A stretch of 64,000 nt of DNA from Saccharothrix sp. NRRL B-16348 (lineage in GTDB: Bacteria; Actinomycetota; Actinomycetes; Mycobacteriales; Pseudonocardiaceae), in contig NZ_LGED01000227.1 of the NCBI RefSeq assembly GCF_001280085.1, positions 1 through 64,000 of the forward strand, in the 5' to 3' direction. Made by a program: the position numbers and the translations under genes. Positions 4,757-26,443 of this stretch are shown in pieces. Below the pieces are notes generated by a model. The model worked only from the letters and a program-made list of their open reading frames with translations, was not told the origin of the DNA and made no database searches. Within the stretch, counting starts at the first letter, position 1; each line of letters opens with the position of its first letter.

Positions 4757-5227
4757 TCGTCGCCTACACCGACGCCCACAAACACGAGTTCGGAGTCGAG
4801 CCGATCTGTGCCGTACTGACCGCGGCCAGCACCAAGATCGCTCCGAGCACCTACTACGCCGCCCGCTCCCGTCCGCCTTCGGCACGCGCGGTCCGCGACG
4901 CGGTGGTCACCGAGAAGATCACGGAGGTGCGCGAGAAGCTACGGCGTCTACGGGATCCGCAAGATCTACGCCGAGCTGGTCCGCCAAGGCGGCGTCGAGG
5001 GTCGTCCGGTCGCTCGCTGCACCGTCGCCCGACTGATGAAAGCCGTTGGCCTGCAGGGGATCTCACGATTGAAGACCCCGCGCACCACCCACGGCGGCAA
5101 GGGCGGCGACCCGCGTCCGGACCTTGTCAAGCGGGAGTTCGCCGCCCCGGCGCCCAACCGGCTGTGGGTCGCCGACATCACCTAATGGGTGGGTGAGACC
5201 TGGGGCGGTGGATCGTCTGTGGGTCGA

Positions 5228-10777: not shown

Positions 10778-11293
10778 TCATGCGTCCAGAAGTAGCGGCG
10801 GCACCCTGTGGCCGCCTGACAGCGAACGAGGTTCCACCCGATGGTGAAGGGGCGTGGAGCCGATGGTTGATCGCCTCGGGCGCCACTGTGTCCAACGCCG
10901 CGCCGTCGTGGCATGGAGGTGGTGTCGGAGATAGGGTGTCTCGCTGTCGGCCCTCGGCGTGCGGTGATTCGTTTCCCCGACCGTGACCCCGTGCCGAGGG
11001 CTGCTCTCTTGCCCGGACGCGTATTTCATCGTGTGATGGGGTTGATCGTGCATCCGCAGATGCATGGTGGCGGCTTGTTCGGGGGTGTACAGGATCGGTG
11101 TGGTGTCACCGGTGTCGGGTTGCGGGGTGTTCCGGGCGGCGGCCGGGTCGACGGGTTCGACCGGTTCGGGGTTCTCCGTTGGGCGGATGCGGGCCGGTGG
11201 CGGGTCGGTCGTCGCCGGGGCGAGCGTCGGCGGGGCGAGCGTCGGCGGGGCGAGCGGGCGTAGACGTCCGGGGACGCGTCGTGGCGTGTTCAT
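10778..11293 (-). CDS. Possible HTH (excisionase-like) ORF, overlapping the dpdA tail
   Basis: A frame beginning MNTPRRVPGRLRPL has a GAGGA ribosome-binding site at the right distance and continues to PILYTPEQAATM. That resembles the first helix of excisionase/MerR-type helix-turn-helix proteins of actinomycete islands. The sequence after this helix is not convincing, suggesting a frameshift or decay, and the first 188 bp overlap the low-complexity end of the dpdA-like gene in another frame. Either dpdA ends earlier in the ancestral element and this is a small DNA-binding protein, or it is a chance frame. Low confidence. Confidence 0.35.
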   Translation of the reverse strand: MNTPRRVPGRLRPLAPPTLAPPTLAPATTDPPPARIRPTENPEPVEPVDPAAARNTPQPDTGDTTPILYTPEQAATMHLRMHDQPHHTMKYASGQESSPRHGVTVGETNHRTPRADSETPYLRHHLHATTARRWTQWRPRRSTIGSTPLHHRVEPRSLSGGHRVPPLLLDA

Positions 11294-12074
11294 GGAGTCC
11301 TCGCGTGGGATCCGAGTCCGGTTCCCGTGGGTCGGTGTGGGGTGTGAGGGTGCGCAGGACGCGGTTGTGCCATGTGAGGGCGAAGCGGAGGCAGTTGGAT
11401 TCGCTGCGGTGGCTGGGTGTGCAGCCGGTGGTGTAGCGGCCGGTGAGGCTCCAGGATGCGGAGTCGGAGCTGGTGATGGTGTCGGCGTAGCGGGTGAGGC
11501 CGGTGAGTTTGACGCCGAAGCCGTGCAGGCGGAGTGCGCGTGTGGCCAGTGAGCGCATGATGTGTTCGACGTCGGTGGTGTGTTGTCGTCGGCAGACGCT
11601 GCCGACGCCGACCAGGGGCAGGGTGGCGAGGTCGATGCCGTGTCGTTCGTACAGGTCGGCGCAGCGGTGGTAGTCGGCGGTGGATTGTCCTTGCAGGACG
11701 GGGATGATCGGGAGGTCGGGTGCGAGGTCGCGTAGTCGGAGGTAGTTGGTGACGGTGCGGTGTTGGTGGGTGCGCAGGCTCAGTCCGGTGCGGGCGAGGA
11801 CGTGGGGTTCTGTCATCCAGTCCTGGGGTGCGGCCCAGTCGAGGTGGCCGATCTCGGTGGCGTAGCGGCGGACGGCGGCGGCGTAGGTGGTCGCGTCGGT
11901 GCGCCAGTGGCCGTGCAGGGACAGTTCGGTGAAGCCGCCGGAGTCCAGTGCCCATCCTGTGGTGGCGCGTGGGAGGGTTCGGCGGTCGGCCAGGCGGCGG
12001 TGGCTGACCAGGAGCGGCACGCCGAGGTCGCGGGCCAGCCAGGCCGGTTGGTGGGTGCCGAGGTAGAACTTCAT
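11106..12074 (-). CDS. DpdA-like tRNA-guanine-transglycosylase-fold protein
   Basis: A 322-residue protein. The first ~230 residues have the TGT-like pattern of DpdA-family enzymes: YLGTHQPAWL, WALDSGGFTELS (conserved Asp44), WAAPQDWMTEP, IPVLQGQSTADYHRCADLY, LPLVGVGSVCRRQ, LRLHGFGVK and TITSSDSASWS with a second conserved Asp. DpdA enzymes exchange guanine in DNA for a 7-deazaguanine base such as preQ0, made or imported by the cell. The start overlaps the stop of the VUT transporter gene (ATGA), so it is translationally coupled to a likely precursor importer. The last ~90 residues are a Pro/Arg/Thr-rich tail containing a 15-bp tandem repeat and are probably not part of the fold. No TGT zinc site is obvious. 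The family assignment is strong; the in vivo DNA substrate is inferred. Confidence 0.8.
   Translation of the reverse strand: MKFYLGTHQPAWLARDLGVPLLVSHRRLADRRTLPRATTGWALDSGGFTELSLHGHWRTDATTYAAAVRRYATEIGHLDWAAPQDWMTEPHVLARTGLSLRTHQHRTVTNYLRLRDLAPDLPIIPVLQGQSTADYHRCADLYERHGIDLATLPLVGVGSVCRRQHTTDVEHIMRSLATRALRLHGFGVKLTGLTRYADTITSSDSASWSLTGRYTTGCTPSHRSESNCLRFALTWHNRVLRTLTPHTDPREPDSDPTRGLHEHATTRPRTSTPARPADARPADARPGDDRPATGPHPPNGEPRTGRTRRPGRRPEHPATRHR
11221..11256 (-). repeat. 15-bp tandem repeat in the dpdA tail
   Basis: The unit CGAGCGTCGGCGGGG occurs twice exactly (11221-11235, 11236-11250) with a partial third copy. In the dpdA-like frame it encodes repeated RPADA; in the overlapping frame it encodes APPTL. 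It looks like slipped-strand expansion in a non-conserved tail. Confidence 0.75.
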
Positions 12075-12652
12075 GTCCGTGCCGTCCGACGGCGCCGCTG
12101 GGCGGTGTGCAGGGCGGTCAGGGTGAGGATCGTGGCGACGGCTTTGCCCGTGATCTGACCGGGCAGGGCGGCGACGCCGCCGAAGGCCAGCGGGACGAAC
12201 AGCACGCTGTCGACCACCAGCCCCGCGGCGTTGGACGCCGCGACCGCCGTGGTTCGTGTGCGGTGGCGTAGCCGGGTGTAGACGAGTGTGTCGAGGACTT
12301 CGGAGACGGTGAACGCGACGACACAGGCCACGGCGATCCGCGGCGAGGCAAACAGGGCTGACAGTCCGGCGCCGGCGAGGATGCCCGCTGTGACCCCGAG
12401 GGCTCCGCACCGGTCGTGCACCAGGTCGCGGAGGGTCAGACCGGCACCGACGAACAGCGTGCCCGCCGGCAGCAGCATCCCGCCGACAATCAACGGCGGC
12501 CAGTGGACCGAGGCGATGTTGGCAGCGACGACCGCCACCAGGTATCCGGCCAGCACCGCGACAACGGACACCACGCGACACGGTGATGGCACCGGACCGA
12601 CCACCGCCCCCGGCCCGGTCGTGCGGAGCTGCGGGATCGTCGTGGTGTTCAC
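12071..12652 (-). CDS. VUT-family (YhhQ-like) queuosine-precursor transporter
   Basis: A 193-residue membrane protein with about six hydrophobic segments and the VUT/YhhQ signatures: YLVAVVAANIASVHWPP near the start, then PAGTLFVGAGLTLRDLVHDRCG and FTVSEVLDTLVYTRLR in the middle. YhhQ-type proteins import 7-deazapurines such as preQ0/preQ1 for queuosine synthesis. Here the gene sits inside a DNA-methylation operon and directly before a DpdA-like gene, with GTGA overlap upstream and ATGA overlap downstream. That supports a role in supplying the deazaguanine that DpdA would insert. No preQ0 biosynthesis genes are in the window. Family assignment is confident; cargo is inferred. Confidence 0.8.
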   Translation of the reverse strand: MNTTTIPQLRTTGPGAVVGPVPSPCRVVSVVAVLAGYLVAVVAANIASVHWPPLIVGGMLLPAGTLFVGAGLTLRDLVHDRCGALGVTAGILAGAGLSALFASPRIAVACVVAFTVSEVLDTLVYTRLRHRTRTTAVAASNAAGLVVDSVLFVPLAFGGVAALPGQITGKAVATILTLTALHTAQRRRRTART

Positions 12653-14115
12653 GCCGCACGCTCCCCGGGCCCGGTGTCGGTGACCGGCTCACCGGAGCGG
12701 CACGACCAGGGTGAGCAGCCGTCCGGGTCGCTGCCGTCGTCGTGCGTCGGCGCCAGCGTGAGCGACCGCGGGTGCCGCGTCGTCTTGCGGGGCGCCGCAA
12801 GCACCTCCGTGCCGGTCCCGGTCCGGTGGTCGGCGTGCAGGAGTTCGGCGAGGTCGTGCAGCAGCAGCGACACCGCGTGGGCGGCCTGCTGGGGGACGAC
12901 GCCGTTGCCCAGCGCCCGCAGCTGTGCGGTGCGGGGCAGCGGGAGGTCGGTGACCCACCCGGGCGGGAGGCCCATGAGGTGCTCGACGAAGGCCGGGGCG
13001 AGTACCGGGCGGCCGTGGTTGCCGGGTTGGGTCGGGTGGGGTGTCGGGCGGCCGAGCACGGTCTCCCAGCGGCCGATCGCCGCCTCGTAGACGCCCCAGT
13101 CCACCGACAGCAAGGACAGCCGGCTGGCCGGGCCGTCGGTGGGTCCGCCGTCCTCTGAGGGCGCTGTTACGAGCTGGCGTCGCCGCTGTGGTTCGTGGCT
13201 GGGTTGAGCAGGCTGATCACCGCGGAGGGCAGCATCAGGTCGCCCTTGGAGCCTCGCTGGGCCGGGCAGCCTTTCGTGCCGTCCGTGGCGCGCGGTGTCA
13301 GCAACAACCACTGCGGGTCGGCCAGCGGGAGCACCTGCTGTGACAGTGGCGGCCGGAACCCCGTTCCCGCCGCGCGTCCCGCCGTTCCGGTGTCCGAGGC
13401 CCGCGGGGTCGGCAGCAGCCTCGCCTCGTCCGGCAGCGACGGCCCACCGGTCTGCGTCCGGTGCGTGCAGTTCTTCGCATCCGAGGATGGCGTGGGTGGT
13501 GTCGCGGGGCCAGGCGAGCAGGAACACGCGTTCGCGGCGGTGGGCGGCTCCGACGTCGGCGGCGCGGACGCTACGCCAGAACGCGTCATACCCCGCTTCG
13601 GCCAGGTCGCCGAGTACACGGTGGAGCCCTCCGCCTTTCCAGCGAAGCGCGGCGACGTTCTCCAGCACGACGAGCGCGGGTCGTAGTACGCGAACGCCCG
13701 CCACGATGTCGGTCCACAGGCCACTGCGGCGCCCTTTCTCGATGCCCGCGCGTTTGCCCGCGGCGGAGATGTCCTGACACGGCCACCCGGCTACGAGCAC
13801 GTCGACGGGCTCGACCGCGGCCCAGTCGATGCGCCGCAGGTCGCCCAGGTTCGGGATGCCCGGCATCCGGGCGTCGAGGATCCGGGCGATGTGCGGGTCG
13901 GGGTCGGCGACCCAGGCGATCCGGCCGCCGCCGAGAGCGGCCAGCACGCCGAGGTCCAAGCCGCCGTGGCCGGTGCACAACGACCCAATCAGGGGACCGC
14001 GTTCGACGGTCGGTCGCGTCGGCCGTCCCGCGCCCGGCGGCATCTTGCGGGTTGGGGCGACCGCGAGCGGGTGAGCCGTCTGCTCGCGTGTCGACTGACG
14101 TGGTCGGCCGGTCAT
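12649..14115 (-). CDS. C5-cytosine DNA methyltransferase, TRD region disturbed
   Basis: The start (MTGRPRQSTREQ) overlaps the previous stop by ATGA. Motif I is SLCTGHGGLDLG (45-56). The catalytic loop is VLVAGWPCQDIS with Cys113, then LENVAALRWKGGG, RRERVFLLAWP, and C-terminal motifs FVEHLMGLPPGWVT and LRALGNGVVPQQAAHAV. Such enzymes methylate cytosine C5. The middle (about 13170-13420) is open in this frame, but the neighbouring frame reads LLPTPRASDTGTAG and LLLTPRATDGTKGCPAQRGS, which is the expected target-recognition sequence of this family. The gene probably carries two compensating frameshifts around its specificity domain, so it may be inactive or altered, unless these are sequencing errors. 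It keeps its place in the coupled operon. Confidence 0.7.
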   Translation of the reverse strand: MTGRPRQSTREQTAHPLAVAPTRKMPPGAGRPTRPTVERGPLIGSLCTGHGGLDLGVLAALGGGRIAWVADPDPHIARILDARMPGIPNLGDLRRIDWAAVEPVDVLVAGWPCQDISAAGKRAGIEKGRRSGLWTDIVAGVRVLRPALVVLENVAALRWKGGGLHRVLGDLAEAGYDAFWRSVRAADVGAAHRRERVFLLAWPRDTTHAILGCEELHAPDADRWAVAAGRGEAAADPAGLGHRNGGTRGGNGVPAATVTAGAPAGRPAVVVADTARHGRHERLPGPARLQGRPDAALRGDQPAQPSHEPQRRRQLVTAPSEDGGPTDGPASRLSLLSVDWGVYEAAIGRWETVLGRPTPHPTQPGNHGRPVLAPAFVEHLMGLPPGWVTDLPLPRTAQLRALGNGVVPQQAAHAVSLLLHDLAELLHADHRTGTGTEVLAAPRKTTRHPRSLTLAPTHDDGSDPDGCSPWSCRSGEPVTDTGPGERAA

Positions 14116-15299
14116 GCCGCCCTGCTCTCCGACACATCCGAGGCGGTCCTCGGATTCGCGGCGTGCCGTACCGTTCCGGTGACGGAACCTCGGGAATTCT
14201 TGAGATCCGCCGCGCCCGCGGATGGCGAACTCGTGCTTGTGAGGGGCGTCCTGAGGACCAGTACGTCCTCGTGCGCGATGAGGTGCAGTGGCAGTCCGGC
14301 TTCGCGTTGTTTGCGGATGAAGTCGCGTTGGAAGAACGAGCCCCTGGGTACGAGGTCGTGTTCGGCCGCGCGTGCGAGCAGGGCGACGCAGCGTTCGACG
14401 GGGATGAGTCCGGCGGCGCGTCCGCAGGCGAGGATCTGGGAGGGCAGGTCGATGAGTTCGGCGTGTTCGCGCCAGGGGCGGATGGTGATGGCGATGTGTC
14501 CGCCGGGGCGCAGGAAGGCGGTGAGTCCGGTGAGGATGCGGGTGAACCCGGCGAGTAGGCGGTGGTGGCCGATGTTGGCGAGGTTGCCGCGGTCGAGGGT
14601 GTTGCCGTAGAGGTGGTGGTACTTCTGCACTCCGACGCCCGGTATCGCCGAGACCTGTCCGTGGGTGGAGGGCCCGTACGGCGGCGAGGTGACCACCAGC
14701 GCGGCCTGCCCGAGGTATTCCGGTGGTAGCAGTGAGGTGATCCGGCGGGCGTCGCCGTGGAACACACGGCCCTCGTGGGTGACGCCGGCGTGGTGGGCGA
14801 GGTCGACGTTGGCGCGGGAGACCTCGACCCAGTGGGGTTCGTACTCGACACCGACGGCACGGCGTCCGGCGTGCAGTGCCTCGACGAGGGTGGTGCCGAT
14901 CCCGCACATCGGGTCGAGCACCAGGTCGCCGGGCGCGGTGTAGTGGCCGATCGCGTAGGCGGCGACGGCGGGGAGCATCTTGGCCGGATGAGCGGTCGAC
15001 TCGGCCGTGTAGCGGCCCTTGCGCTGCGCTCCCGGTGAGGTCTGCGCGGTCGTCCACACCGACACCGCGGACTCCGCCACGGCGCACTCGGCGGACCGGT
15101 CCGGTGTGGTGTCGACGCCGTCGACGACGGCGCGCGCGACGCGCCGGGTCGGCCCGTCGACCGCGCTCCCGATGCAGGCCCGGGCCGGGCCGACGCGCGT
15201 GTCCGAGGCGGTGCGGACGAGGTGGACGTCGGCCACGGGCGTACCTTCCTGACAGGCGGTCGGGGTCTGCGTAGGGTTCGGAATCGGGCCGCTGGTCAT
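14112..15299 (-). CDS. Beta-class DNA methyltransferase (N4-C or N6-A)
   Basis: A 395-residue protein. The region STAHPAKMLPAVAAYAIGHY leads into the AdoMet-binding motif DPMCGIGTTLVEAL (129-142), followed by VGVEYEPHWVEVSRANV and the catalytic motif VVTSPPYG (about 202-209). This order, with a TSPPY motif, is typical of beta-type methyltransferases that modify exocyclic amino groups of adenine or cytosine in DNA. The N-terminal 90 residues are less conserved, and a start at about residue 22 (VADVHLV) is possible, but the ATG at 15299 overlaps the upstream stop exactly. It is the second gene of the operon. The C-terminal 50 residues look disordered. DNA specificity cannot be read from sequence. 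Confidence 0.85.
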   Translation of the reverse strand: MTSGPIPNPTQTPTACQEGTPVADVHLVRTASDTRVGPARACIGSAVDGPTRRVARAVVDGVDTTPDRSAECAVAESAVSVWTTAQTSPGAQRKGRYTAESTAHPAKMLPAVAAYAIGHYTAPGDLVLDPMCGIGTTLVEALHAGRRAVGVEYEPHWVEVSRANVDLAHHAGVTHEGRVFHGDARRITSLLPPEYLGQAALVVTSPPYGPSTHGQVSAIPGVGVQKYHHLYGNTLDRGNLANIGHHRLLAGFTRILTGLTAFLRPGGHIAITIRPWREHAELIDLPSQILACGRAAGLIPVERCVALLARAAEHDLVPRGSFFQRDFIRKQREAGLPLHLIAHEDVLVLRTPLTSTSSPSAGAADLKNSRGSVTGTVRHAANPRTASDVSESRAA

Positions 15300-16375
15300 C
15301 GGATGACTCCGGTCGCGACCATCGCGGTGCCCGCGGCGGCCTGGCGGGGCGGTTCGTAGTCGTGCTGCTGTCCGAACACGAGTAGGTCCGAGTGGATTCG
15401 GCGGTGCGGCGTGGGCAGCCCGCGCACGGCTGCGCGGTGTCGGGCGCGGATGTCGTCCTCGGCCGTCGGACTGTCGAGTCCGGTGAGCTGGTCGGAGGCG
15501 AACCGGCCGGCGTGCACCGGCGCGTGCAGGGCGACGATGTGCTGGAGGTAGAGCAGGTCGGCGTTCTGCGCCGCGGCCACCACTGCTCCGGTCGGGTCGG
15601 TCAGTTCACCGCTCGTCCAGTCGCAGTGCGTGAGCACGGCGAGGATTCCTCCGACCCTCAGCAGTCGTGCCGCGACCAGTGCCACGAGGTCGCCGGCGTG
15701 GTCTCCGCCGTGCTGGGGACGCAGGCTTGTGATGATCAGGTCCGTGCTCGCCTGCGGGGTACCGAGGTCATCGGACACTCCGTCGCCGATGTCGGAACGC
15801 GGCGACGCCGAGACGGTCGAGCGTGAGGCGCCGGGGTCGCCGACGAGGTCGTCCCAGAACGGTCGCGACGCCGGACCGGTGGCGGCCGGACCCGCCGTCA
15901 CGCGCACCACACGGCCGGTCCGGCGGAGGCCCTCGACGGCGGCGAGCGCGTCGGCCAACACACCGTCGGGCTCCGCCGATGGCGTGTTGTCGACCGTCCG
16001 GTCATCGCCTGCCGGCATGTGCGGGGAAGTGTCGCCTGGGGTCGGCCAGGGCAGCAGCACGACCTGTCCGCCGGGCTTGCTGAACGCGCGGACGATCTTG
16101 CCGATGATCGGTGTGGGCCAGGACGTGTCGAGGTCCATCGGGACCGGGCCGGCCGTCCACACCGTTGCCGGTGTCGGCGACGCTGCCGCATCACGTGACC
16201 GCGACCGGGTGCGTTCGGAGCCGGGTTTGGCGGGGCTGATCCTGGTGGTGGTCGGGGCGGTCGGGTAGGGGCGGCGGTTCCCATCCAGGTGTCGGCGCGA
16301 ACTGGTGCCCGCCGGGCGGGTGGCGTCGTCGCGGCGCGTCGGACCGCGACGTGAGGGGTGGTCGGGCTGGGTCAT
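15296..16375 (-). CDS. Methyltransferase-like protein lacking catalytic motifs
   Basis: The start MTQPDHPSRRGP at 16375 is chosen; the longer frame has no support. The 359-residue product has a disordered N-terminus, then an arrangement echoing the next gene's methyltransferase: TSWPTPIIGKIVRAFSKPGG in place of the HPAKMLPA...PGD segment, TDLIITSLRP where a catalytic TSPPY motif would stand, and LRVGGILAVLTHCDWTSGEL where a late strand is expected. The glycine-rich DPxCGxG motif is replaced by QVVLLPWPTPG. It is probably a catalytically inactive paralogue acting as a specificity or regulatory partner, or a methyltransferase with unusual motifs. First gene of the minus operon; its stop overlaps the next start by 4 bp. 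Confidence 0.6.
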   Translation of the reverse strand: MTQPDHPSRRGPTRRDDATRPAGTSSRRHLDGNRRPYPTAPTTTRISPAKPGSERTRSRSRDAAASPTPATVWTAGPVPMDLDTSWPTPIIGKIVRAFSKPGGQVVLLPWPTPGDTSPHMPAGDDRTVDNTPSAEPDGVLADALAAVEGLRRTGRVVRVTAGPAATGPASRPFWDDLVGDPGASRSTVSASPRSDIGDGVSDDLGTPQASTDLIITSLRPQHGGDHAGDLVALVAARLLRVGGILAVLTHCDWTSGELTDPTGAVVAAAQNADLLYLQHIVALHAPVHAGRFASDQLTGLDSPTAEDDIRARHRAAVRGLPTPHRRIHSDLLVFGQQHDYEPPRQAAAGTAMVATGVIR

Positions 16376-16642
16376 GGATTCCTCGCAGAGCAGTCGGGGT
16401 GCGCGGCGAACGCGGCACACTCGTACGCCCTCGACTCCGAAATCCGGACCGTTTTTCAACAGCCTGTACCCGATTTTTCAGAGAAACCTATTCGACACCC
16501 ATGGGTAGTCGCACGGCAGAGGTTCGCATGTGCACCCATACCCAAGGCAGGGCGCAGTCGGGAGAAAGTCGCCGAGCGGCTCGATTGCTCGCGTCCGGGC
16601 AGGAGACTCACCACCGCGGTGCGGCTTGAGCCGGCGACCCGC

Positions 16643-16908: not shown

Positions 16909-17967
16909 ATGGCGAAACGTCACATGTTGAATTGTGTTCCTCTTGGGCGTGATTGTCTGCCGTTGGATGCGGCGAGGACGGCATTCGAGTGGCTGGTCAC
17001 CGGCCCGGATCCGATCTCGGTCGAGGGTCGGTGTTTCGCCGGTCTGCCGCGGCGGCGGGTGCCGCTGGACGAGCTGCGGGATCTGCTGTTGGATCCCGCT
17101 CTGCCGATGTCGACGGTGGACCCGGTCTGGGTGCATCTGGTCGCGCGTTCACGCGACGAGGGCGGTGCGGCGACGGTGGGCTGTGTCGGGGTCGCGCTGC
17201 CGGCGTTGTTCGCCATCGCGGCCGAGCTGTGCGCGCCGTTCGCCGATGACCACCACGACATCCACGCCGCGGTGCTGACCGGGTTCCTGTCCGAGTTGGC
17301 CCGTGCGGACCTGGACAGGCCGTGGGTGATGTGGCGGCTGCGGTGCGCGGCGTTGCGCGCGGGACACCTGTTCATCCGCGACGCGTTGGAGAGCCCGACC
17401 CCGTCGGATGAGGACTTCCACTCCGGCGAGCCGACCCGGCCGTGGGGGCATGAGGACTTCGTGCTTGCCCGCGCGGTGGCCGAGGGTGTGATCACCGGGG
17501 CGCAGGCCGAGCTGATCGGCTCCACCCGGCTGGAGCCGGAGTACACGCTGCGCCAGGCCGCCGCGGACCGGGGCGTGAGCTACAAGGCCATCGAACAGGT
17601 CCGTCGCCGCGCGGAGCGCAGGTTGGTGGCCTGGCTCGCCGACCAGGCCCCGTACGACGACCCCGGCGATCGCCGCGAACGCGATGTGGAGATCCGTGCG
17701 GTCAACGCGGTCACGATCACCGCCGCCGCCCACGGGACCGCGCACCCGTCGACCGGCACACCCGAGAAGTCACGCATGGTGACCGCTCGTCGGGGAAGGT
17801 CGGCGAAAGAAGTCCGGCGAAGCGTGTTGAAAAACGCTGCGGAATCCGGAGTCGAGGGCTGCGGGAGACGAGCGGTCGCTGCCGTGCACACCACCTCGCC
17901 CGACCGTCCGACCGGGACCACGCGGCGGACGTCGGGCACGACTCCGGAGGAACCCCGATGCGCCTGA
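16909..17967 (+). CDS. Sigma-like/HTH regulator, first gene of the conjugation operon
   Basis: The ATG at 16909 has AAGGA 8 bp upstream. The 352-residue protein is largely helical and unfamiliar, but near residues 205-245 it has VAEGVITGAQAELIGSTRLE followed by TLRQAAADRGVSYKAIEQVR. This resembles a sigma-region-4/LuxR-type helix-turn-helix as found in island-encoded regulators. The C-terminal ~80 residues (RRGRSAKEVRR, HTTSPDRPTGTTRR) are basic and probably disordered. It opens the conjugation operon and lies beside the 11-bp repeat array, so it is the best candidate for the protein that binds it. The stop overlaps the pilin gene's start region. Confidence 0.6.
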   Translation: MAKRHMLNCVPLGRDCLPLDAARTAFEWLVTGPDPISVEGRCFAGLPRRRVPLDELRDLLLDPALPMSTVDPVWVHLVARSRDEGGAATVGCVGVALPALFAIAAELCAPFADDHHDIHAAVLTGFLSELARADLDRPWVMWRLRCAALRAGHLFIRDALESPTPSDEDFHSGEPTRPWGHEDFVLARAVAEGVITGAQAELIGSTRLEPEYTLRQAAADRGVSYKAIEQVRRRAERRLVAWLADQAPYDDPGDRRERDVEIRAVNAVTITAAAHGTAHPSTGTPEKSRMVTARRGRSAKEVRRSVLKNAAESGVEGCGRRAVAAVHTTSPDRPTGTTRRTSGTTPEEPRCA

Positions 17968-18479
17968 CCCATCTGCCCGGCAACTGCCCGCCCGACCGCC
18001 GAGACAGCGGCCACCGGCTGTGCCGCGGCCCCGTCGCCGGTCCTTCCGCGACTACTCGCCGAGCCCGGTCGGGTGCGTCGCGATCGACCGCCGGCACACC
18101 GTCCATACCTCCGATGTGTACCGCGTCGGTGCGCCGTCGCACCACCGTCGCCCGGCGGTTCGTGGTGATAGCCGAGCTGGTGGTCGGGCTCGTCGTCGTC
18201 CTGCCCGTGTCGTCGGCTCATGCGGACACCGCGGTGCTCGCGGTCGCGGGCAGCGTCGACGAGGTTCTCACCAACATCCGCAACTGGTTGATGGGCATCC
18301 TCGCCGGGCTGGCGACGGTGTTTTTGACCGTCGGTGGTGTGCGTCGGGTGTTCGGTGGCGGTGATCCCGGCGAGCAGGAGAAGGCGAAGACCGCGTTCAA
18401 GTCCGCCGGGATCGGCTATGGACTGGCCGCGCTCGCACCGCTGGTCGTCTCGGTGCTCAAGGGCATCGTGGGCGCCTAG
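17958..18479 (+). CDS. VirB2/TrbC-like T4SS pilin precursor
   Basis: The ATG at 17958 has GGAGG 7 bp upstream and overlaps the previous gene's end. After a basic, poorly conserved N-terminus of about 65 residues comes a signal-like segment (FVVIAELVVGLVVVLPVSSA, cleavage near AHADTA). The mature pilin has ~87 residues with two hydrophobic helices: WLMGILAGLATVFLTVGGVR and, after GEQEKAKTAFKSAGIG, YGLAALAPLVVSVLKGIVG. This two-helix pattern with a short positive loop is that of TrbC/VirB2-type pilins of actinobacterial type IV secretion systems. It probably forms the conjugation channel or surface polymer. An internal ATG at 18114 is an alternative start. Confidence 0.75.
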   Translation: MRLTHLPGNCPPDRRDSGHRLCRGPVAGPSATTRRARSGASRSTAGTPSIPPMCTASVRRRTTVARRFVVIAELVVGLVVVLPVSSAHADTAVLAVAGSVDEVLTNIRNWLMGILAGLATVFLTVGGVRRVFGGGDPGEQEKAKTAFKSAGIGYGLAALAPLVVSVLKGIVGA

Positions 18480-18481
18480 CC

Positions 18482-20569
18482 ATGGCCACCACCACGTCCA
18501 CCGTGTGTCGACACCGGCAGCCACCGTGGAACGAGTCCCCCACCACCGTCCCGGCCCCGATGTCGCCGGGCGACCGTGGCGGCCTCGTGCAGCCGACGAT
18601 CGGGCGCCGCCGCCGCACGGTGTCGGTGTTGTTGGCCGGTGCGGTCGCGGTACTGGGCTGCACCCTGGTGCTGTCGGCGTCCGCGCAGCCGACGACACCG
18701 GCCACGGCGCCTGCCGCTCAACCTTCCGATCCGTGTGCCGGTCCGGGTCCACACCCTGTGCCGTGCCCACCGTCGACGACGAGCTCGCCGACAGCAGCGG
18801 TGCCGTCGACCACGGCGCCGTCGAACCCCTGCCTCACACCACAACCCGGCCGACCAGTTCCGCCCGGATGTCTACCGCGCCCGACGACCACCTTGTCCCG
18901 ACCGTCCACGACCCCGACGGGCACCCCACCGGCACGTCCGGAGGGCCCGGAGTGCGGGATTCTCAACCCGAGCGCGTGTGTCGGGGAGGGGATCGCCGGG
19001 TTCCTGCACCTGCTGGTCGGCGAGTCGCTGAACGTGTTGTTGGGCTGGGTCGGCGGCACGCTGCTGTCCACGCCGACGCTCGCCGACCTGCCCCGGGTCG
19101 GGGAGTTGTGGGAGAAGTCGCGGCTGGTCGTGGTGGCGGTCTACTCGCTGGTGGTGATGCTGGCCGGGCTCCTGCTGATGGGGCACGAGACCGTGCAGGC
19201 CCGCTACTCGATCCGCGACATCGCGCCGCGCGTCGCGGTCGGGTTCCTGGCCGCCAACCTCAGCCTGCTCGTCGGCGACCACGCCATCCGGCTGGCCAAC
19301 GCGGCCAGTCTGGCCGTGCTCGGCGACGGGCTCGACCCCCAGACCTCCGGGCAGGCGGTCACCGAACTGTTCGTCGGTCTGGTGGCCAACTCACTCGTGA
19401 CGGGCGGGTTGTTCGCCGGGGTGTTGTCGGTGGTGCTCACCGTCCTGCTGGTCGCGTTGCTGGTCGGCTACATCGTGCGGGTCGCGCTCACCGTGATCCT
19501 GCTGGCCGGGGCACCGCTGGCGCTGATGTGGCACGGCCTGCCCCAGACCGAAGGGCTCGCGCACTGGTTCTGGCGAACCGGAGCCGGAGTGCTCGGCATC
19601 CAGGTCGGCCAAAGCCTCGCACTGATCTGCGCCCTGAAGGTCTTCCTGGAGCCCGGAGGGTTCCACTTCTTCGGCGCCCCGACCACCGACGGACTCGTCA
19701 ACCTCATCGTCCTGATCGCCCTGGTGTGGATCCTGGTCAAGATCCCCGGCTGGGTGATGCGACAGGTCCAACTCGGCGGCGGACGCCGGACCTTCGTCGG
19801 CGGACTCGCCCGCGCCTTCGTGATCGGCAAGACGATGGGTGTACTCGGCGGTCGAGGCACCCGGACGGCGACTGCCGGGCGGTCGACTGGTCCGGGTCTC
19901 GGCACCGGGGGCGCGCCGCGCCGTGAGCCGCCGTGGCCGGCGCCGATCCGCGAGTGGGGCGGCATCGGCGGCGCGGCGACCCCGGAGGCGGTCGGACGCC
20001 GCCTGCACACTCAACGGGCGCAGGAGTCCGCGCGGCGGCGCACGGTGTCCGGTCGACAGCACCTGCGGTTCCTTCAACCCACACCCCAGGCACCGACGCA
20101 CGACCTCGCCGCCTGGAAACCCGCGGGCAGCACCACCGTGCCCGAGTTCCGGACCGCCGGCGCGTCCGAAGAAGGTTCGTCGTCGAGTCCTCTGCCCTAT
20201 CCGGTCGGTACTGCGGCGCCACCGGTGTTCGGCGCGGCGGCGCCGCGTGTGTCGTCCCGGTCCACGCCCGTGCCTCCGATGCGCACGGCATCGGTGCCGC
20301 CGGAGCTGCGGTTCCGACCGGCCACCGGCGACGCTCCCGTGCGCCCGGTCCGGGCGGCCGCGCGGGCCGAGGTGCCGGTGTTCCGATCGGTGTCACCGCA
20401 GACCGGTGTGCACGGCAGGCGGACCAGGACCCACACGCCGGCGCCGGTGCTGTTCCAGCCGCCGCGTCGTCCCGATACGTCACCACCCACACCGCCTCCG
20501 GCGTCGGTTCCTCCGGCTCGGGGCGTTGCGCCGGCAGTGCCTACTCGATCGGAAGGTGAGCGGTCGTGA
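18482..20569 (+). CDS. VirB6/TrbL-like T4SS inner-membrane protein
   Basis: A 695-residue protein. An N-terminal hydrophobic segment (TVSVLLAGAVAVLGCTLVLS) is followed by an extracytoplasmic Pro/Thr/Ser-rich stretch (about 75-150) with paired cysteines (NPCLTPQPG, GPECGILNPSACVG). About six transmembrane helices follow between 165 and 450, for example LVVVAVYSLVVMLAGLLLMG and GVLSVVLTVLLVALLVGYIV. The cytoplasmic C-terminal third is Pro/Arg-rich. The multi-spanning centre with a short GLPQTEGLAHWFWRTG loop matches the TrbL/VirB6 type that forms part of the DNA channel. It starts 2 bp after the pilin stop, and its own stop overlaps the next gene (GTGA). Confidence 0.75.
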   Translation: MATTTSTVCRHRQPPWNESPTTVPAPMSPGDRGGLVQPTIGRRRRTVSVLLAGAVAVLGCTLVLSASAQPTTPATAPAAQPSDPCAGPGPHPVPCPPSTTSSPTAAVPSTTAPSNPCLTPQPGRPVPPGCLPRPTTTLSRPSTTPTGTPPARPEGPECGILNPSACVGEGIAGFLHLLVGESLNVLLGWVGGTLLSTPTLADLPRVGELWEKSRLVVVAVYSLVVMLAGLLLMGHETVQARYSIRDIAPRVAVGFLAANLSLLVGDHAIRLANAASLAVLGDGLDPQTSGQAVTELFVGLVANSLVTGGLFAGVLSVVLTVLLVALLVGYIVRVALTVILLAGAPLALMWHGLPQTEGLAHWFWRTGAGVLGIQVGQSLALICALKVFLEPGGFHFFGAPTTDGLVNLIVLIALVWILVKIPGWVMRQVQLGGGRRTFVGGLARAFVIGKTMGVLGGRGTRTATAGRSTGPGLGTGGAPRREPPWPAPIREWGGIGGAATPEAVGRRLHTQRAQESARRRTVSGRQHLRFLQPTPQAPTHDLAAWKPAGSTTVPEFRTAGASEEGSSSSPLPYPVGTAAPPVFGAAAPRVSSRSTPVPPMRTASVPPELRFRPATGDAPVRPVRAAARAEVPVFRSVSPQTGVHGRRTRTHTPAPVLFQPPRRPDTSPPTPPPASVPPARGVAPAVPTRSEGERS

Positions 20570-21792
20570 GCTACCACGAGACCCGGACGGGCGGGTCCTA
20601 TGCGGTGCGAATCCCGGCCGACGTCGACATGGACGACCGTGTGCTGGGGCCGCTGACCGCGCGCCAGCTGGCGATCCTCGCAGTGACCGGGGCGGTGCTC
20701 TACCTGCTCTGGGCGGCCACTCGCACGCTGCTGCCGACGCCGGTGTTCGCCGTGTTCGCAGTCCCGGTCGGCGCGGCCGCGATGATGCTCGCGTTGGGCC
20801 GTCGTGACGGCGTCGCGATGGACAAGCTGCTGCTCGCCGCGATCCGGCAGCGCTTGGCTCCGCGTCACCGTGTCGCCGCGCCGGAAGGTGTGCGCCCGGC
20901 CCCGGCCTGGCTCACCGCCGCCGCGGGCGAACCGGCCGGCGGTCGCCCGCGTGACGGGCGACGGGCATCACGGTCCGAGCAGGTGTCGCCGTCGGCGTTG
21001 CGGCTGCCCGCCGAGGCCGTCACCGACACCGGTGTGGTCGATCTGGGCGGCGACGGCCTGGCGGTGGTCGCGGTCGCGAGCACGGTGAACTTCGCCCTGC
21101 GCACGCCGAACGAGCAGGAAGCGCTCGTCGCCGGGTTCGGCCGCTACCTGCACTCCCTGACCGCCCCGGTGCAGGTGCTCGTCCGGACCGAACGTCTGGA
21201 CCTGTCCGGGCAGATCGCGCAGCTGCGCGAGCGGGCGGGCGGGCTGCCGCACCCGGCGCTGGAGGCCGCCGCGTTGGAGCACGCCGACTACCTGGTCCAG
21301 CTGGGCGGGCAATCGCATCTGCTGCGCCGCCAGGTGCTGCTGGTGTTGCGCGAGCCCTACGGTGTCGCCGCCCCGACCGACGGCCTGGGCGGTCCGGGCC
21401 CGCTCGCGGTGCTCGGCTCAATGGCCAGCAGACGCCAGCGGAAACACGCGGCCGGCCAGGTCGACGGTGGGCTCCGGTGGGCGGCGGAGTCGAGGTTGGT
21501 GCGCCGCCTGAGCGAGGCGATCGAGTTGCTGTCCCCGGCCGGGATCGCGGTGACCCCGCTGGACGCCGGGCAGGCCACGGCGGTGCTGGCCTCGGCATGT
21601 AACCCCGACAGCCTGTTGCCGCCGACAGCCCGGTTGGCCGGCGCGGACGAGGTCATCACCACGTCCCACCCCGACCCGTCCGAGCAGGACACCGCCGGCA
21701 TCTTGCGCCGGCCCGTCGGCCATGCGTTCGGGCAGGACGAGGACTACGACGACCCCGACTTCGACGACGAGGATGGAAGGGTGCGGTCCTGA
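20566..21792 (+). CDS. PrgI/SCO6880-like T4SS membrane protein
   Basis: The GTG start overlaps the previous stop and has GGAAGG upstream. The 408-residue protein begins YAVRIPADVDMDDRVLGPLT, then has two transmembrane segments (QLAILAVTGAVLYLLWA and VFAVFAVPVGAAAMMLAL), the typical PrgI module (VirB3-like). A ~200-residue soluble domain follows (AVVAVASTVNFALRTPNEQE; RYLHSLTAPVQVLVRTERLD) like the N-terminal domain of VirB4-type ATPases. It probably anchors the VirB4 ATPase encoded next to the membrane. The C-terminus is very acidic (DEDYDDPDFDDEDG). Confidence 0.75.
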   Translation: MSYHETRTGGSYAVRIPADVDMDDRVLGPLTARQLAILAVTGAVLYLLWAATRTLLPTPVFAVFAVPVGAAAMMLALGRRDGVAMDKLLLAAIRQRLAPRHRVAAPEGVRPAPAWLTAAAGEPAGGRPRDGRRASRSEQVSPSALRLPAEAVTDTGVVDLGGDGLAVVAVASTVNFALRTPNEQEALVAGFGRYLHSLTAPVQVLVRTERLDLSGQIAQLRERAGGLPHPALEAAALEHADYLVQLGGQSHLLRRQVLLVLREPYGVAAPTDGLGGPGPLAVLGSMASRRQRKHAAGQVDGGLRWAAESRLVRRLSEAIELLSPAGIAVTPLDAGQATAVLASACNPDSLLPPTARLAGADEVITTSHPDPSEQDTAGILRRPVGHAFGQDEDYDDPDFDDEDGRVRS

Positions 21793-21797
21793 TTGCC

Positions 21798-23720
21798 TTG
21801 CGGGTACGGCGCCACCGCCGCCCGGCCGTCACCGCGGCCTCGGCCGGGGCAGCGGCGTTCACCCCGGACGCCCTGTCGGTCGGCGCGCGGCACCTGGAGG
21901 TCGGCGGCGACTGGGTCTCCTCGTTCGCCGTGGTCGGGTTCCCGCGCGAGGTGCACCCCGGCTGGCTCGCGCCGTTGTTGACCTACCCCGGTCGGTTGGA
22001 CGTGGCGCTGCACGTGGAGCCGATCGACCCGGCCACCGCCGCCTCCCGACTCAGGAAGCAGCTGGCGAAGCTGGAGGCCGGGCGCCGCCACACCGCCGAG
22101 CACGGCCGCCTGTTCGACCCCCAGGTCGAGGCCGCGACCGAGGACGCCTACGACCTGTCCTCCCGGGTCGCCCGCGGCGAGGGGAAACTGTTCCGGGTCG
22201 GCCTGTACCTGACCGTTCACGCCGGCACGGAGCAGGGGTTGGCCGACGAGGTGGCGGCGCTGCGGTCGCTGTGCGCGTCGTTGCTGCTCGACGCCAAGCA
22301 CACCACATACCGGTCGCTGCAGGGCTGGGTGTCCACGCTGCCGATGGGCCTGGACCTGATCGGCATGCGCCGGACCTTCGACACCTCGGCGTTGGCGGCG
22401 GCGTTCCCGTTCACCAGCCCCGACCTGCCCGCCCCGGACCCCGCCTCGGTCGCCGCGCCGTCGGGGGTGCTCTACGGCTACAACATCGGCTCCCAAGGCC
22501 TGGTGCACTGGGACCGGTTCGGCGAGGCCATGCACAACCACAACTCGGTGATCCTCGGCCGGAGCGGGGCGGGCAAGTCCTACCTGGTCAAACTCGAACT
22601 CCTGCGCAACCTGTACCGGGGCATCGAGATCGCCGTCGTCGACCCCGAGGACGAGTACGCCCGCCTGGCCGCCGCCGTGGGCGGCACCTACGTCCACCTC
22701 GGCGCACACGGTGTCCGGTTGAACCCGTTCGACCTGCCCATCCACACCCGCGCCGACGGACGCCGCACCGCACCCAAGGACGCACTCCTGCGACGCAGCC
22801 TGTTCCTGCACACCGTCATCGCCGTACTCGCCGGCGGCGAACCGGCCGCTGCAGGGCGGGCGGCGTTGGACCGGGCGATCGCCGCGACCTACCAGAGTGT
22901 CGGGATCACCGCCGACGCCCGCACCTGGACGCGCCCCTCCCCCACTCTGCGCGTCCTGCGCGACCAGCTCACGGACGCGGGACAGGCCGGTGACCCGGCT
23001 GCCGCCGAGTTGGCCGCGAGGCTGCACCCCTACGTGGAAGGCGCGTTCAAGCAGCTGTTCGACGGGCCTAGCAGCGTCAATCCCGAGGGTCATCTCGTCG
23101 TGTTCAGCCTGCGCGACCTGCCCGACGAGGTGAAAGGGATCGGCACGCTGCTCACTCTGGACGCGGTGTGGCGGCGGGTGTCCAACCCGGCGATCCGCCG
23201 CCCGCGGCTGGTCGTGGTCGACGAGGCGTGGCTGCTCATGAAAGAGCCCTCCGGGGCCGAGTTCCTGTTCCGCATGGCGAAGGCGTCCCGCAAACACTGG
23301 GCCGGCCTGACGGTGGCCACCCAGGACACGGCCGACGTGCTGGGCAGCGATCTGGGCAAGGCGGTCGTGGCGAACGCGGCGACCCAGATTCTGCTGCGGC
23401 AGGCGTCGCAGGCGATCGACGAGATCACCCGGACGTTCGACCTCTCGGCAGGGGAACGGGCGTTCCTGCTCTCGGCCGACCGGGGGCAGGGCCTGCTGTC
23501 TGCCGGAACGCAACGGGTGGCGTTCCACGCCATCGCCTCACCGACCGAGCACCATCTCGTCACCAGCGACCCGGCCGAACTCGCCGCCTACGCGGACGCG
23601 GCCGATCCGACGGACGAGGCCGATGCCGCCTACGTCGACCTGGGATCCGGCGACGACGTCCCCCACGCCGTCGCCGACGAGTCCGACACCGACGACCAAG
23701 TCGCGGCCGACTCCGCCTGA
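21798..23720 (+). CDS. virB4: VirB4-like T4SS ATPase
   Basis: A 640-residue ATPase from a TTG start shortly after the preceding stop; no better start is in frame. Walker A is GRSGAGKSYL (about 254-263), Walker B is LVVVDEAWLL (about 471-480). The conserved VATQDTADVLGSDLGKAVV and ATQILLRQASQAIDEITRTF segments of VirB4/TraC proteins are present. The N-terminal half (residues 1-240) is the usual membrane-proximal domain. VirB4 powers pilus biogenesis and substrate transfer in type IV secretion. The acidic C-terminus resembles that of the preceding gene. The sequence appears intact, and its place between PrgI-like and coupling protein genes is typical. Confidence 0.9.
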   Translation: MRVRRHRRPAVTAASAGAAAFTPDALSVGARHLEVGGDWVSSFAVVGFPREVHPGWLAPLLTYPGRLDVALHVEPIDPATAASRLRKQLAKLEAGRRHTAEHGRLFDPQVEAATEDAYDLSSRVARGEGKLFRVGLYLTVHAGTEQGLADEVAALRSLCASLLLDAKHTTYRSLQGWVSTLPMGLDLIGMRRTFDTSALAAAFPFTSPDLPAPDPASVAAPSGVLYGYNIGSQGLVHWDRFGEAMHNHNSVILGRSGAGKSYLVKLELLRNLYRGIEIAVVDPEDEYARLAAAVGGTYVHLGAHGVRLNPFDLPIHTRADGRRTAPKDALLRRSLFLHTVIAVLAGGEPAAAGRAALDRAIAATYQSVGITADARTWTRPSPTLRVLRDQLTDAGQAGDPAAAELAARLHPYVEGAFKQLFDGPSSVNPEGHLVVFSLRDLPDEVKGIGTLLTLDAVWRRVSNPAIRRPRLVVVDEAWLLMKEPSGAEFLFRMAKASRKHWAGLTVATQDTADVLGSDLGKAVVANAATQILLRQASQAIDEITRTFDLSAGERAFLLSADRGQGLLSAGTQRVAFHAIASPTEHHLVTSDPAELAAYADAADPTDEADAAYVDLGSGDDVPHAVADESDTDDQVAADSA

Positions 23721-23776
23721 CCATCAACGCTCGTCCACTCTCCGCGCCTCGTCGCGGCTTTCTCGAAGGATCCGTG

Positions 23777-26392
23777 ATGCTGCCCTGGATACAGGCTGCC
23801 GTCGATCAGCCGCCGGAACCGCTTCCGCACAAGGACTGCCGCCCGGCACGCTCGTCCGCTGTCCAGGCCGTCGGGTGGATGGAGGACTATCTGCGCGACC
23901 CTGGCGGCGTCGTGCTCGCGCTGCTGGAACGGCTGCGTGACCTCGCACTGGGCTGGGGCCCGCTCGTGGCGCCGGTACTCGCGGTCCTCGCCGTCGCGAT
24001 CGTGACCGGCCGGCGCTGGTGGGCGCGGCGCTGCCACGAGCTGCTGCTCGCCGACGCCCGCCAGGTCACCGTGCTCGCCCCACCGCAGGTGGATCCCGCG
24101 GGCGGCGCCGCGCTGTGGTCCAACCTCGTCGGCCTGCTGCGGCCGGGCTGGCGGCGGGCATTCACCGGCCAACCGCACATCGCCTGCGAGTACGCGTTCT
24201 CCGAAGCCGGTGTCGCGATCCGGCTGTGGGTGCCCGGTGTCATCCCGCCCGGCCTGGTCGAGCGCGCGGTCGAGGCCGCCTGGCCCGGCTCCCACACCCG
24301 CGTCGGCCCCGCCCACCCGCCGCTACCCGCAGCCGGTGACGGCCGAAGGCGGGTGGTGGTCGGCGGCGAGCTGCGCCTGGCACGCCCCGAAGCACTGCCC
24401 ATCCGGTCGGTGTTCGACGCCGACCCGCTCCGCGCCCTGATCGGAGCGCCGGTCGGGCTGGGCCGGGACGAGCACGCCTGCGTGCAGATCCTGGCCCGCC
24501 CGGTCACCGGCCACCGCGTCCAACGCGCCCGCCGCGCCGCCCGACGCGTGCACACCGGCAGGTCGCCCCGCCTGGTCGGCCAGCTGTTGGACGTCGTCAC
24601 GCCCGGTGCGAGGACCGGTGGGTCCCGGCGCGCGGCGGCGCAGGGCTCGGTGCACAGCGATCCGCAGACGTCGCTGGAGTACGCGGCGCAGAACCGCGCG
24701 ATCGTCACCAAACAGCGCGGCAGCCAGTACGAGACGGTGATCCGCTATGCCGTCGCCACCCTCCTCCCCGCGGACATGGCCGACGGTGAGGTGCGGGCCG
24801 CGCGGGATGTCGCCCGCGGACGGGCCCACGCCCTCGCCGCGTCGTTTGCCTCCTACACCGAGCACAACCACTACACCCGCCACCGCCTCCGCGACCCCGG
24901 CACGGTGATCGACTCACGGCGGCTCGGGCGCGGGGACCTGTTGTCGGTGCCAGAGTTGGCCGCCCTCGCGCACCTGCCCACCGACGAGGCCATCCCCGGC
25001 ATCCAACGCGCCGGAGCCCGCGCCATCGCACCACCACCCGGCATCGCCACACCCGGCCCCGAGGCCAAGCCGCTCGGGATCACCGACACCGGCCACGAAC
25101 GTCCCGTCGCGCTGCGCGTGCCCGACGCCCGGCACCACCTGCACGTCATCGGCGCCACCGGCTCCGGCAAGTCCACCCTGCTCGGCAACATGATCCTGGC
25201 CGACGCCGAAGCCGGCCGCGGCATCGTCCTGATCGACCCCAAAGGCGACCTCGTCACCGACGTCCTGTCCCGCCTGCCGACCGCGGCCCGGGACCGGGTC
25301 GTGCTCTTCGACGCCGACAGCCGCAGCCGACCGCCCTGCCTCAACCCCCTCGACGGCGGCGAGACCGACCTGACCGTCGACAACCTCGTGTCGGTGTTCC
25401 GGCGGGTGTACTCCGCGTTCTGGGGGCCGCGCACCGACGACGTCATGCGCGCCGCCTGCCTCACCCTGCGCACCCAGCAAGGCGTCGCGACCCTCGACGA
25501 CCTGCCCAAACTCCTGGGCGACCCGGCCTTCCGGTCGCGGGTCACCGCCGCCGTCGCCGACCCTGTTCTGCGCGGTTTCTGGTCCTGGTACGAGGAACTG
25601 ACCGACTCGTCGCGTTCCCAGGTCATCTCGCCGTTGATGAACAAGCTGCGCGCGTTCCTGCTCCGCCCGTTCGTCCGCGACGCCATCGCAGGCGGCCCCT
25701 CCACAGTGGATATGGGCAGCGTCCTGGACGGCGGGATCTGCCTGGTGCGCATCCCCAAAGGCTCACTCGGCGAGGAGACCACCCGGCTGGTCGGATCGCT
25801 GGTCGTCGCCGGCACCTGGCAGGCCACCACCGCCCGCGCCCGCACCCCGCAACGCCAACGACGCGACGCGAGCCTGGTGATCGACGAGTGCCACAACTTC
25901 CTCAACCTGCCCTACCCCATCGAGGACATGCTCGCCGAAGCCCGCGGCTTCCGCGTCGCCATGACCCTGGCCCACCAACACCTCGGCCAACTCCCCCGCG
26001 AACTACGCGAAGGCATGTCCACCAACGCCCGCAGCAAAATCTTCTTCAACGCATCCCCCGAAGACGCCCGCGAACTGTCCCGCCACACCGCCCCACGGCT
26101 GACCGACCACGACCTCGCCCACCTCGGCGCCTACCACGCCGCCGCCCGCCTCGTCCTGGCCGGTGAACAAGCCCAACCGTTCACCCTGCTCACCACTCCC
26201 CTGCCACCCGCGATCCCCGGCCGCGCCCGCGACATCCGCAGCACCGCCCGCCGCGCCCTGCACAACCCCGCCACCCGCACCGCCCCATCCACGTCCGGCC
26301 CACAAGACCGGCCAGACCCGCCGCCCACCGCCGGCGATCGACACACCGGACCCGCCGGGCAGCGGCACAGCGCCGACCCGCGCCGCCGCTGA
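23777..26392 (+). CDS. VirD4/TraD-type coupling protein
   Basis: An 871-residue ATPase; ATG at 23777 with GAAGGA 6 bp upstream is preferred to the in-frame GTG at 23774. One N-terminal transmembrane segment (WGPLVAPVLAVLAVAIVTG) is followed by a large periplasmic-type/assembly region. The motor domain comes next: Walker A VIGATGSGKSTLLGNM (about 457-472), IVLIDPKGDLVTD, and Walker B SLVIDECHNFL (about 698). TLAHQHLGQLPRELREGMST and KIFFNASPEDARELSRH are the helicase/AAA elements of type IV coupling proteins. It brings DNA-protein substrate to the T4SS channel and pumps single-stranded DNA. The last 60 residues are Pro/Arg-rich and probably bind the substrate complex. Intact, and central to the claim that the element is conjugative. 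Confidence 0.9.
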   Translation: MLPWIQAAVDQPPEPLPHKDCRPARSSAVQAVGWMEDYLRDPGGVVLALLERLRDLALGWGPLVAPVLAVLAVAIVTGRRWWARRCHELLLADARQVTVLAPPQVDPAGGAALWSNLVGLLRPGWRRAFTGQPHIACEYAFSEAGVAIRLWVPGVIPPGLVERAVEAAWPGSHTRVGPAHPPLPAAGDGRRRVVVGGELRLARPEALPIRSVFDADPLRALIGAPVGLGRDEHACVQILARPVTGHRVQRARRAARRVHTGRSPRLVGQLLDVVTPGARTGGSRRAAAQGSVHSDPQTSLEYAAQNRAIVTKQRGSQYETVIRYAVATLLPADMADGEVRAARDVARGRAHALAASFASYTEHNHYTRHRLRDPGTVIDSRRLGRGDLLSVPELAALAHLPTDEAIPGIQRAGARAIAPPPGIATPGPEAKPLGITDTGHERPVALRVPDARHHLHVIGATGSGKSTLLGNMILADAEAGRGIVLIDPKGDLVTDVLSRLPTAARDRVVLFDADSRSRPPCLNPLDGGETDLTVDNLVSVFRRVYSAFWGPRTDDVMRAACLTLRTQQGVATLDDLPKLLGDPAFRSRVTAAVADPVLRGFWSWYEELTDSSRSQVISPLMNKLRAFLLRPFVRDAIAGGPSTVDMGSVLDGGICLVRIPKGSLGEETTRLVGSLVVAGTWQATTARARTPQRQRRDASLVIDECHNFLNLPYPIEDMLAEARGFRVAMTLAHQHLGQLPRELREGMSTNARSKIFFNASPEDARELSRHTAPRLTDHDLAHLGAYHAAARLVLAGEQAQPFTLLTTPLPPAIPGRARDIRSTARRALHNPATRTAPSTSGPQDRPDPPPTAGDRHTGPAGQRHSADPRRR

Positions 26393-26443
26393 CAGACCCA
26401 CCCGACGGTGCCCCTTCCACCACTCCACTCGCGGAGGTTCGCC

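Follow-up and report, generated by a model that had tools for sequence, protein, structure and literature searches.

From which source does a mobile genetic element that encodes a DpdA-type DNA base-exchange enzyme obtain its base? For DpdA-only mobile elements this was left open by a 2019 survey (Hutinet 2019; PMC6884629). The question is raised again by an operon in a 64,000-nt stretch of Saccharothrix sp. NRRL B-16348 (contig NZ_LGED01000227.1, positions 1–64,000; hereafter the window), where the gene of a small transporter overlaps that of DpdA. With moderate confidence, we propose that the operon is an import-and-insert cassette, the DNA-modification module of a family of actinobacterial integrative conjugative elements that uses imported 7-deazaguanine. 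A dedicated importer gene that overlaps dpdA, in genomes that yielded no match to QueC or to TGT, would directly answer where the base comes from, and feeding can put that answer to the test.

A five-gene operon in the window

The genes of the operon are as follows:

15296..16375, reverse strand: G1, probably a degenerate methyltransferase-like partner protein (C-terminal homology to the G2 family)
14112..15299, reverse strand: G2, N6/N4-type DNA methyltransferase with motif I followed by SPPY (PF01555, motifs)
12649..14115, reverse strand: G3, C5-cytosine DNA methyltransferase, a variable operon member (PF00145, PCQ and ENV motifs)
12071..12652, reverse strand: small QPTR/VUT-type transporter of 193 aa, the presumed 7-deazaguanine importer (PF02592, phrog_4899)
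11106..12074, reverse strand: DpdA-type DNA base-exchange enzyme of 322 aa (PF23859)

The operon is real, with the coordinates and junctions that an initial annotation of the window had described: given the overlap-making starts, adjoining genes share 4 bp at every junction (ATGA, ATGA, GTGA and ATGA). Because the gene caller picked later starts for G2 (15236) and G3 (14043), the first two overlaps hinge on the choice of start. Four of the genes (G1, G2, the transporter and DpdA) are under purifying selection, with ratios of nonsynonymous to synonymous substitution rates of 0.30–0.62 against five relatives, and the transporter–DpdA overlap recurs in 24 related loci, which places the operon beyond chance.

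The enzyme matched PF23859 with 288.3 bits (cut-off 27), and its structure model, confident over residues ~1–240 with a low-confidence tail, has the DpdA/TGT fold, bearing out its identification as DpdA; the DSGGF motif claimed for it is present. D44 of this motif, D85 and D204 are invariant in 20 sequences and are the putative counterparts of TGT D102, D156 and D280. The transporter matched PF02592 (41.6 bits, cut-off 27.2) and phrog_4899, and its AlphaFold2 model consists of long helices (mean predicted local distance difference test score 84.5). PF02592 is likewise the domain of the QPTR/YhhQ (COG1738) preQ0/preQ1 transporters, among which E. coli QPTR transports preQ0/preQ1 (PMC11130926). 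Judged by its family and neighbouring genes, the operon transporter has a 7-deazaguanine base as its presumed substrate. PDB sequence searches returned no meaningful match for the transporter and no match for DpdA.

No preQ0-synthesis gene was found among the operon genes (Pfam, NCBIfam), in agreement with the initial annotation; QueC, QueD and QueE gave no match there. DndB/DpdB were not matched by G1, the transporter or DpdA (Pfam, PADLOC), and the Pfam matches of G2 and G3 were methyltransferases (in PADLOC, 25 of 52 and 25 of 54 matches were listed).

Pairing of the transporter with DpdA

The pair recurs at other loci. In a DpdA-led search of named genomes, covering the best 80 of 106 relatives (two, L047 and L073, labelled non-actinobacterial), the small transporter stands beside DpdA in 31 loci (in L085 as a split reading frame), and in 24 of these (L036–L058, L105) the end of its gene forms an exact 4-bp overlap with the start of DpdA. 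On a FastTree phylogeny of 182 DpdA sequences, 63 of them with the transporter, this trait changes at least 16 times as a raw count.

Viral genomes were scanned from both sides in IMG/VR. The transporter-led scan covered 80 of 113 relatives, with loci reaching at most 5 kb per side and contigs partly redundant, and a DpdA/TGT-type gene was present in 75 of the 80 loci (in 74 it lies on the same strand, no more than 300 bp away); after clustering, the proportion was 50/55 at 90% identity and 23/27 at 70%. A preQ0-synthesis gene was present in one of the 80. The possibility that the transporter occurs mainly without DpdA, which the initial annotation had named as telling against its proposal, is ruled out by these loci. 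In L156, one of the five partnerless loci, an overlapping frame that encodes IIDSGAF was seen by eye; it had no Pfam match and was not counted. The DpdA-led scan (80 of 194 relatives) gave the transporter in 27 loci (26 within 300 bp), a que gene in three and both in none. The pairing of transporter and DpdA is thus non-random.

The 75 partners comprised 14 PF23859-like proteins, 23 of a short group A and 38 of a short group B. Profiles of the short groups, built from two seeds each, showed no link to PF23859 in hhalign (1.6% for A and 3.3% for B) and matched each other at 92.6%. Short B matches phrog_887, 'queuine tRNA-ribosyltransferase', and short A matches phrog_15826, of unknown function, its proteins being labelled DpdA-like by depositors. 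A broader proposal, to which we give slightly less than even chances, is salvage-only DNA hypermodification, in which one small-QPTR subfamily would be the near-obligate partner of at least two profile-unlinked DpdA/TGT-type groups in phages, plasmids and conjugative elements, and the protection of mobile DNA would depend on a community-shared base.

Compared with QPTR/YhhQ, the operon transporter belongs to a smaller, diverged subfamily that travels with DpdA. In an order sample of 249 genomes, four of the eight low-score VUT matches adjoin a PF23859 DpdA, three lie within ~2.5 kb of QueC and one does neither, whereas none of the 47 full-score VUT matches adjoins a DpdA match (coordinate comparison). 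One genome of our set (G004) has the transporter at both of its DpdA loci, as detected by a purpose-built profile, and no QueC match. Among plasmids, 22 records match the transporter, and in the four with both matches (Embleya, two Streptomyces and Nocardia, among 40 DpdA records listed) the two are neighbours. In phages, a DpdA/TGT-type gene lies near the transporter in 8 of 10 records examined; it was not found near that of Aminobacter phage Erebus (tested for one neighbour and judged by annotation for the others) or of MT837598 (three profiles, 3 kb each side). The kind of base supply alternates among phages. In the stretches examined (10.4 kb for Aoka), Aoka, StevieRay, Pam5 and phiLM21 carry the transporter without an annotated que gene, while Arbiter and Sonali carry genes for QueC/D/E and GTP cyclohydrolase close to DpdA without an annotated VUT. 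Some phages encode YhhQ homologues, for which the survey reported no correlation with any phage group (PMC6884629).

Source of the base

QueC and TGT were searched (E up to 1e-10) in the genomes of 50 of the 80 DpdA loci, 47 genomes in all. QueC was matched in 10 of the 30 genomes with the transporter–DpdA pair and not found in the other 20, and TGT was found in none of the 30; since drafts and metagenome-assembled genomes are included, these absences are soft. Taken together, they suggest that the base often comes from outside and does not serve tRNA queuosine. The 17 genomes with DpdA alone contained QueC in four and TGT in three, and the difference in QueC (10/30 against 4/17) is not significant. 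Near-identical copies of the element (99.5–99.98% identity over 12.3–13 kb) occur in two Prauserella and three Amycolatopsis species (L048, L049, L050, L051 and L105), of which only A. marina has a QueC match, so this mobile element has recently entered hosts with and without QueC.

On these grounds we infer a mechanism in which the small QPTR-type transporter would import free 7-deazaguanine, most likely preQ0 from neighbouring bacteria, and DpdA would exchange guanine in DNA for the imported base in a TGT-type reaction. G1–G2 and sometimes the C5 methyltransferase would put on further marks, and the joint marks may make the DNA of the element hard to restrict in the hosts it enters, shielding it after transfer; the carried importer would free the element from the need for a preQ0-making host. 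Phage 7-deazaguanines are known to block restriction enzymes, and phage CAjan without dpdA loses its protection (PMC6884629). If the mechanism holds, mobile DNA relies on cross-feeding of preQ0 for its anti-restriction, and the modification would go unseen in cultures that lack preQ0.

Queuosine salvage for tRNA as the main use was rejected, TGT having been found neither in the Saccharothrix genome nor in any of the 30 pair-bearing genomes. A variant in which the pair salvages the queuosine precursor and DpdA acts as an unusual tRNA transglycosylase would fit the TGT fold and the queuosine-salvage label that the transporter bears in public records. With nothing in these genomes pointing to tRNA queuosine, with the genes standing beside DNA methyltransferases on mobile elements and with a sequence family that is DpdA and not TGT, we regard RNA use as highly improbable.

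The Saccharothrix genome itself probably has another supply. Its assembly (10.9 Mb) contains one strong QueC match, on a contig (C253) that encodes FolE2, QueD, a radical SAM protein at the place expected for QueE, QueC, another small transporter and DpdC-DpdB-DpdA-DpdB (loci L006, L123 and L124), with HerA-like and TIR-like matches near this dpd island. Assembly contamination is 3.62%, and the tetranucleotide correlation of the three parts of the contig with the window is 0.95–0.97. Provided that the contig is not a contaminant, the host is likely to synthesise preQ0 and to modify its own DNA. The initial annotation had envisaged salvage without synthesis genes, and the operon indeed has none; pure salvage in this genome is ruled out, with the same proviso. 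On contig C24 (L005, 8575–9405), a second PF23859 DpdA is flanked by genes for a Prim-Pol and an AAA ATPase in an element with an integrase, and no transporter adjoins it.

Bacterial dpd islands (DpdA-DpdB-DpdC, with or without DpdD–K) resemble the operon in sometimes having a transporter, YhhQ occurring in ~9% of them (PMC11888242), and differ from it in their other DpdA family, accompanied by DpdB, and in a self mark that serves the host. The element could mimic the host: its DpdA would copy the mark of resident dpd islands so that dpd-type restriction takes the DNA for self, with host preQ0 as the normal source and the transporter as a back-up. Besides the island and the preQ0 synthesis in the same genome and the enrichment of DpdA genomes for QueC described below, such mimicry is consistent with dpd islands appearing to tell self from non-self (PMC11888242). 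It is unlikely in view of the 20 of 30 pair-bearing genomes where QueC was not found, of the absence from the operon of DpdB, the partner of the bacterial enzyme, and of the lack of a DpdD–DpdK match among the 14 distinct proteins scanned on C253 (PADLOC coverage of these models being unconfirmed).

Several observations weigh against the import-and-insert reading. DpdA lacks an adjoining transporter in 49 of the 80 loci of named genomes, and the Saccharothrix genome encodes preQ0 synthesis. In one family of the order sample (f1, 42 genomes), QueC, at a self-chosen threshold of at least 100 bits, was matched in 7 of 11 genomes with a DpdA match, three of the eleven having fragments only, and in 1 of 31 without (p 9e-5). 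Because pure salvage does not predict such enrichment, it counts against that reading; the association fits host supply or host-mark mimicry as well as it fits salvage. The transporter scored 35.4 bits against the NCBIfam equivalog TIGR00697, below the cut-off of 50.95, so we call it QPTR-like and not YhhQ, and a fold search with it gave no significant match (best E 0.2, ThiT). The structural comparison proposed in the initial annotation yielded the DpdA/TGT fold for the 322-aa protein, but TGTs are about equally close and the fold match cannot separate the two.

The phage relatives add to these points. The operon DpdA is of the phage 'singleton' type: its closest phage relatives are mycobacteriophage proteins (391 of 399 matching phage records), the matches listed being ~49–54% identical to it and many of the phages ~68 kb. 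Orion, which is absent from the phage collection searched, belongs to the ~68-kb mycobacteriophage cluster. Neither of two such mycobacteriophages examined has a que gene annotated near DpdA, and in Orion, the one DpdA-only mycobacteriophage tested, 7-deazaguanine was not detected in the DNA (PMC6884629). The proven actinophage case, Rosebush, uses a DpdA of another family: gp2 of Arbiter, of the same species as Rosebush, gave no PF23859 match.

These findings raise the alternative that the PF23859 DpdA has diverged and handles another base, excises bases or is non-catalytic, with no 7-deazaguanine insertion and the transporter carrying that other base. In its favour, no modification was seen in Orion, and the survey flagged the singleton class as possibly diverged (PMC6884629). 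Yet the authors also report that preQ0 synthesis genes are lacking in both Orion and its host (PMC6884629). Set against divergence as well are the putative catalytic residues, invariant in 20 sequences, the DpdA/TGT fold, and a partner related to QPTR, which is what a user of 7-deazaguanine would need; we judge the alternative improbable.

Among described systems, the DpdA-only phage group, for example Orion (Hutinet 2019, PMC6884629), shares the PF23859-type DpdA with the window. In contrast to the operon, no importer is annotated closer than 4 kb to DpdA in the two DpdA-only mycobacteriophages examined, and the phage records that two transporter queries matched include neither of them; unlike the window, these phages have no methyltransferase operon. 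Rosebush-type phages (DpdA with FolE/QueD/QueE/QueC) resemble the operon in placing DpdA beside the supply of its base in a tight cluster; there the base is synthesised by enzymes encoded with a DpdA of another family, and here it would be imported. The salvage version was initially thought undescribed, which stands in part: no description of the pair on conjugative elements was found in the literature searched, including the available portions of PMC6884629, PMC11888242, PMC11130926 and PMC9837993 (the wider literature may say more), while uptake of exogenous 7-deazapurines by DpdA-only phages had already been suggested (PMC6884629).

Conjugative setting and methyltransferases

The operon faces a divergent region, in keeping with the conjugative setting first assigned to it:

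16963..28488, forward strand: conjugation region of genes of unknown family, then PrgI, TraC/TraG-like ATPase, TrwB/VirD4-like coupling protein, Replic_Relax and NlpC/P60 (Pfam)

Beside the operon, 20 of the 24 related loci have homologues of the window genes at 16963–21792, encoded on the opposite strand. The remaining loci either gave no gene calls (L040 and L047) or end too early (L044 and L046). Within the window, no integrase or attachment site was identified. A tRNA-Ala gene lies at ~12.5–12.9 kb of the locus in L050–L052 and L055–L057, and none was called in L048, L049 or L105. Identity within the L049 group ends near this gene (L050, L051), at a position like that in L052, L055, L056 and L057, and in L051 a serine-recombinase-like reading frame was seen by eye just before it.

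The methyltransferase labels were partly sustained, G2 and G3 matching DNA methyltransferase families (PF01555, 55.5 bits; PF00145, 109.6 bits, with PCQ and ENV motifs). The beta-class label for G2 is unsupported: its motif I (DPMCGIGTT, residue 129) precedes SPPY (residue 205), and the motif order of the beta class differs from this. An intact G1 is doubtful. It has no Pfam match and neither the DPxxGxG of motif I nor an SPPY-type motif, and ~100 of its C-terminal columns show homology to the G2 family (hhalign 97.5%), which makes a degenerate partner subunit the probable reading.

The methyltransferases and the transporter–DpdA pair might share a transcript and not a function, which would be compatible with the other readings. 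The C5 methyltransferase is present in only 9 of the 24 overlap loci, six further pair loci, all Streptomyces, have no G1–G3 profile matches beside the pair, and DNA identity to L036 differs between two segments. We consider such unlinked cargo rather unlikely, as 23 of the 24 overlap loci have G1 and G2 upstream, at a distance of ~5 kb in L044, and the one that does not, L046, is truncated by a contig end. One locus (L077) has the methyltransferases and DpdA without the transporter.

Between window positions 11284–16377 and L036, DNA identity is ~93–96% over DpdA, the transporter and most of the C5 gene, and 73% over G1–G2, a mosaic that suggests exchange of the methyltransferase segment between elements. 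In L043 (6567–7310), a C5-methyltransferase-like N-terminal remnant seen by eye shares the reading frame of the transporter, as would follow from the loss of most of the methyltransferase gene. In L052 (6692–7486), a recombinase-domain protein (PF07508) is encoded between G2 and the transporter, where the C5 methyltransferase would otherwise lie.

Elsewhere in the window, positions 4717–4845 match the ALIL pseudoknot (Rfam RF01497, 54.5 bits), an element known from frameshifting insertion sequences. On the strand of the operon and downstream of it, positions 10084–10734 encode a GmrSD_C-domain protein, whose N-terminus, hydrophobic by eye, suggests that it is secreted.

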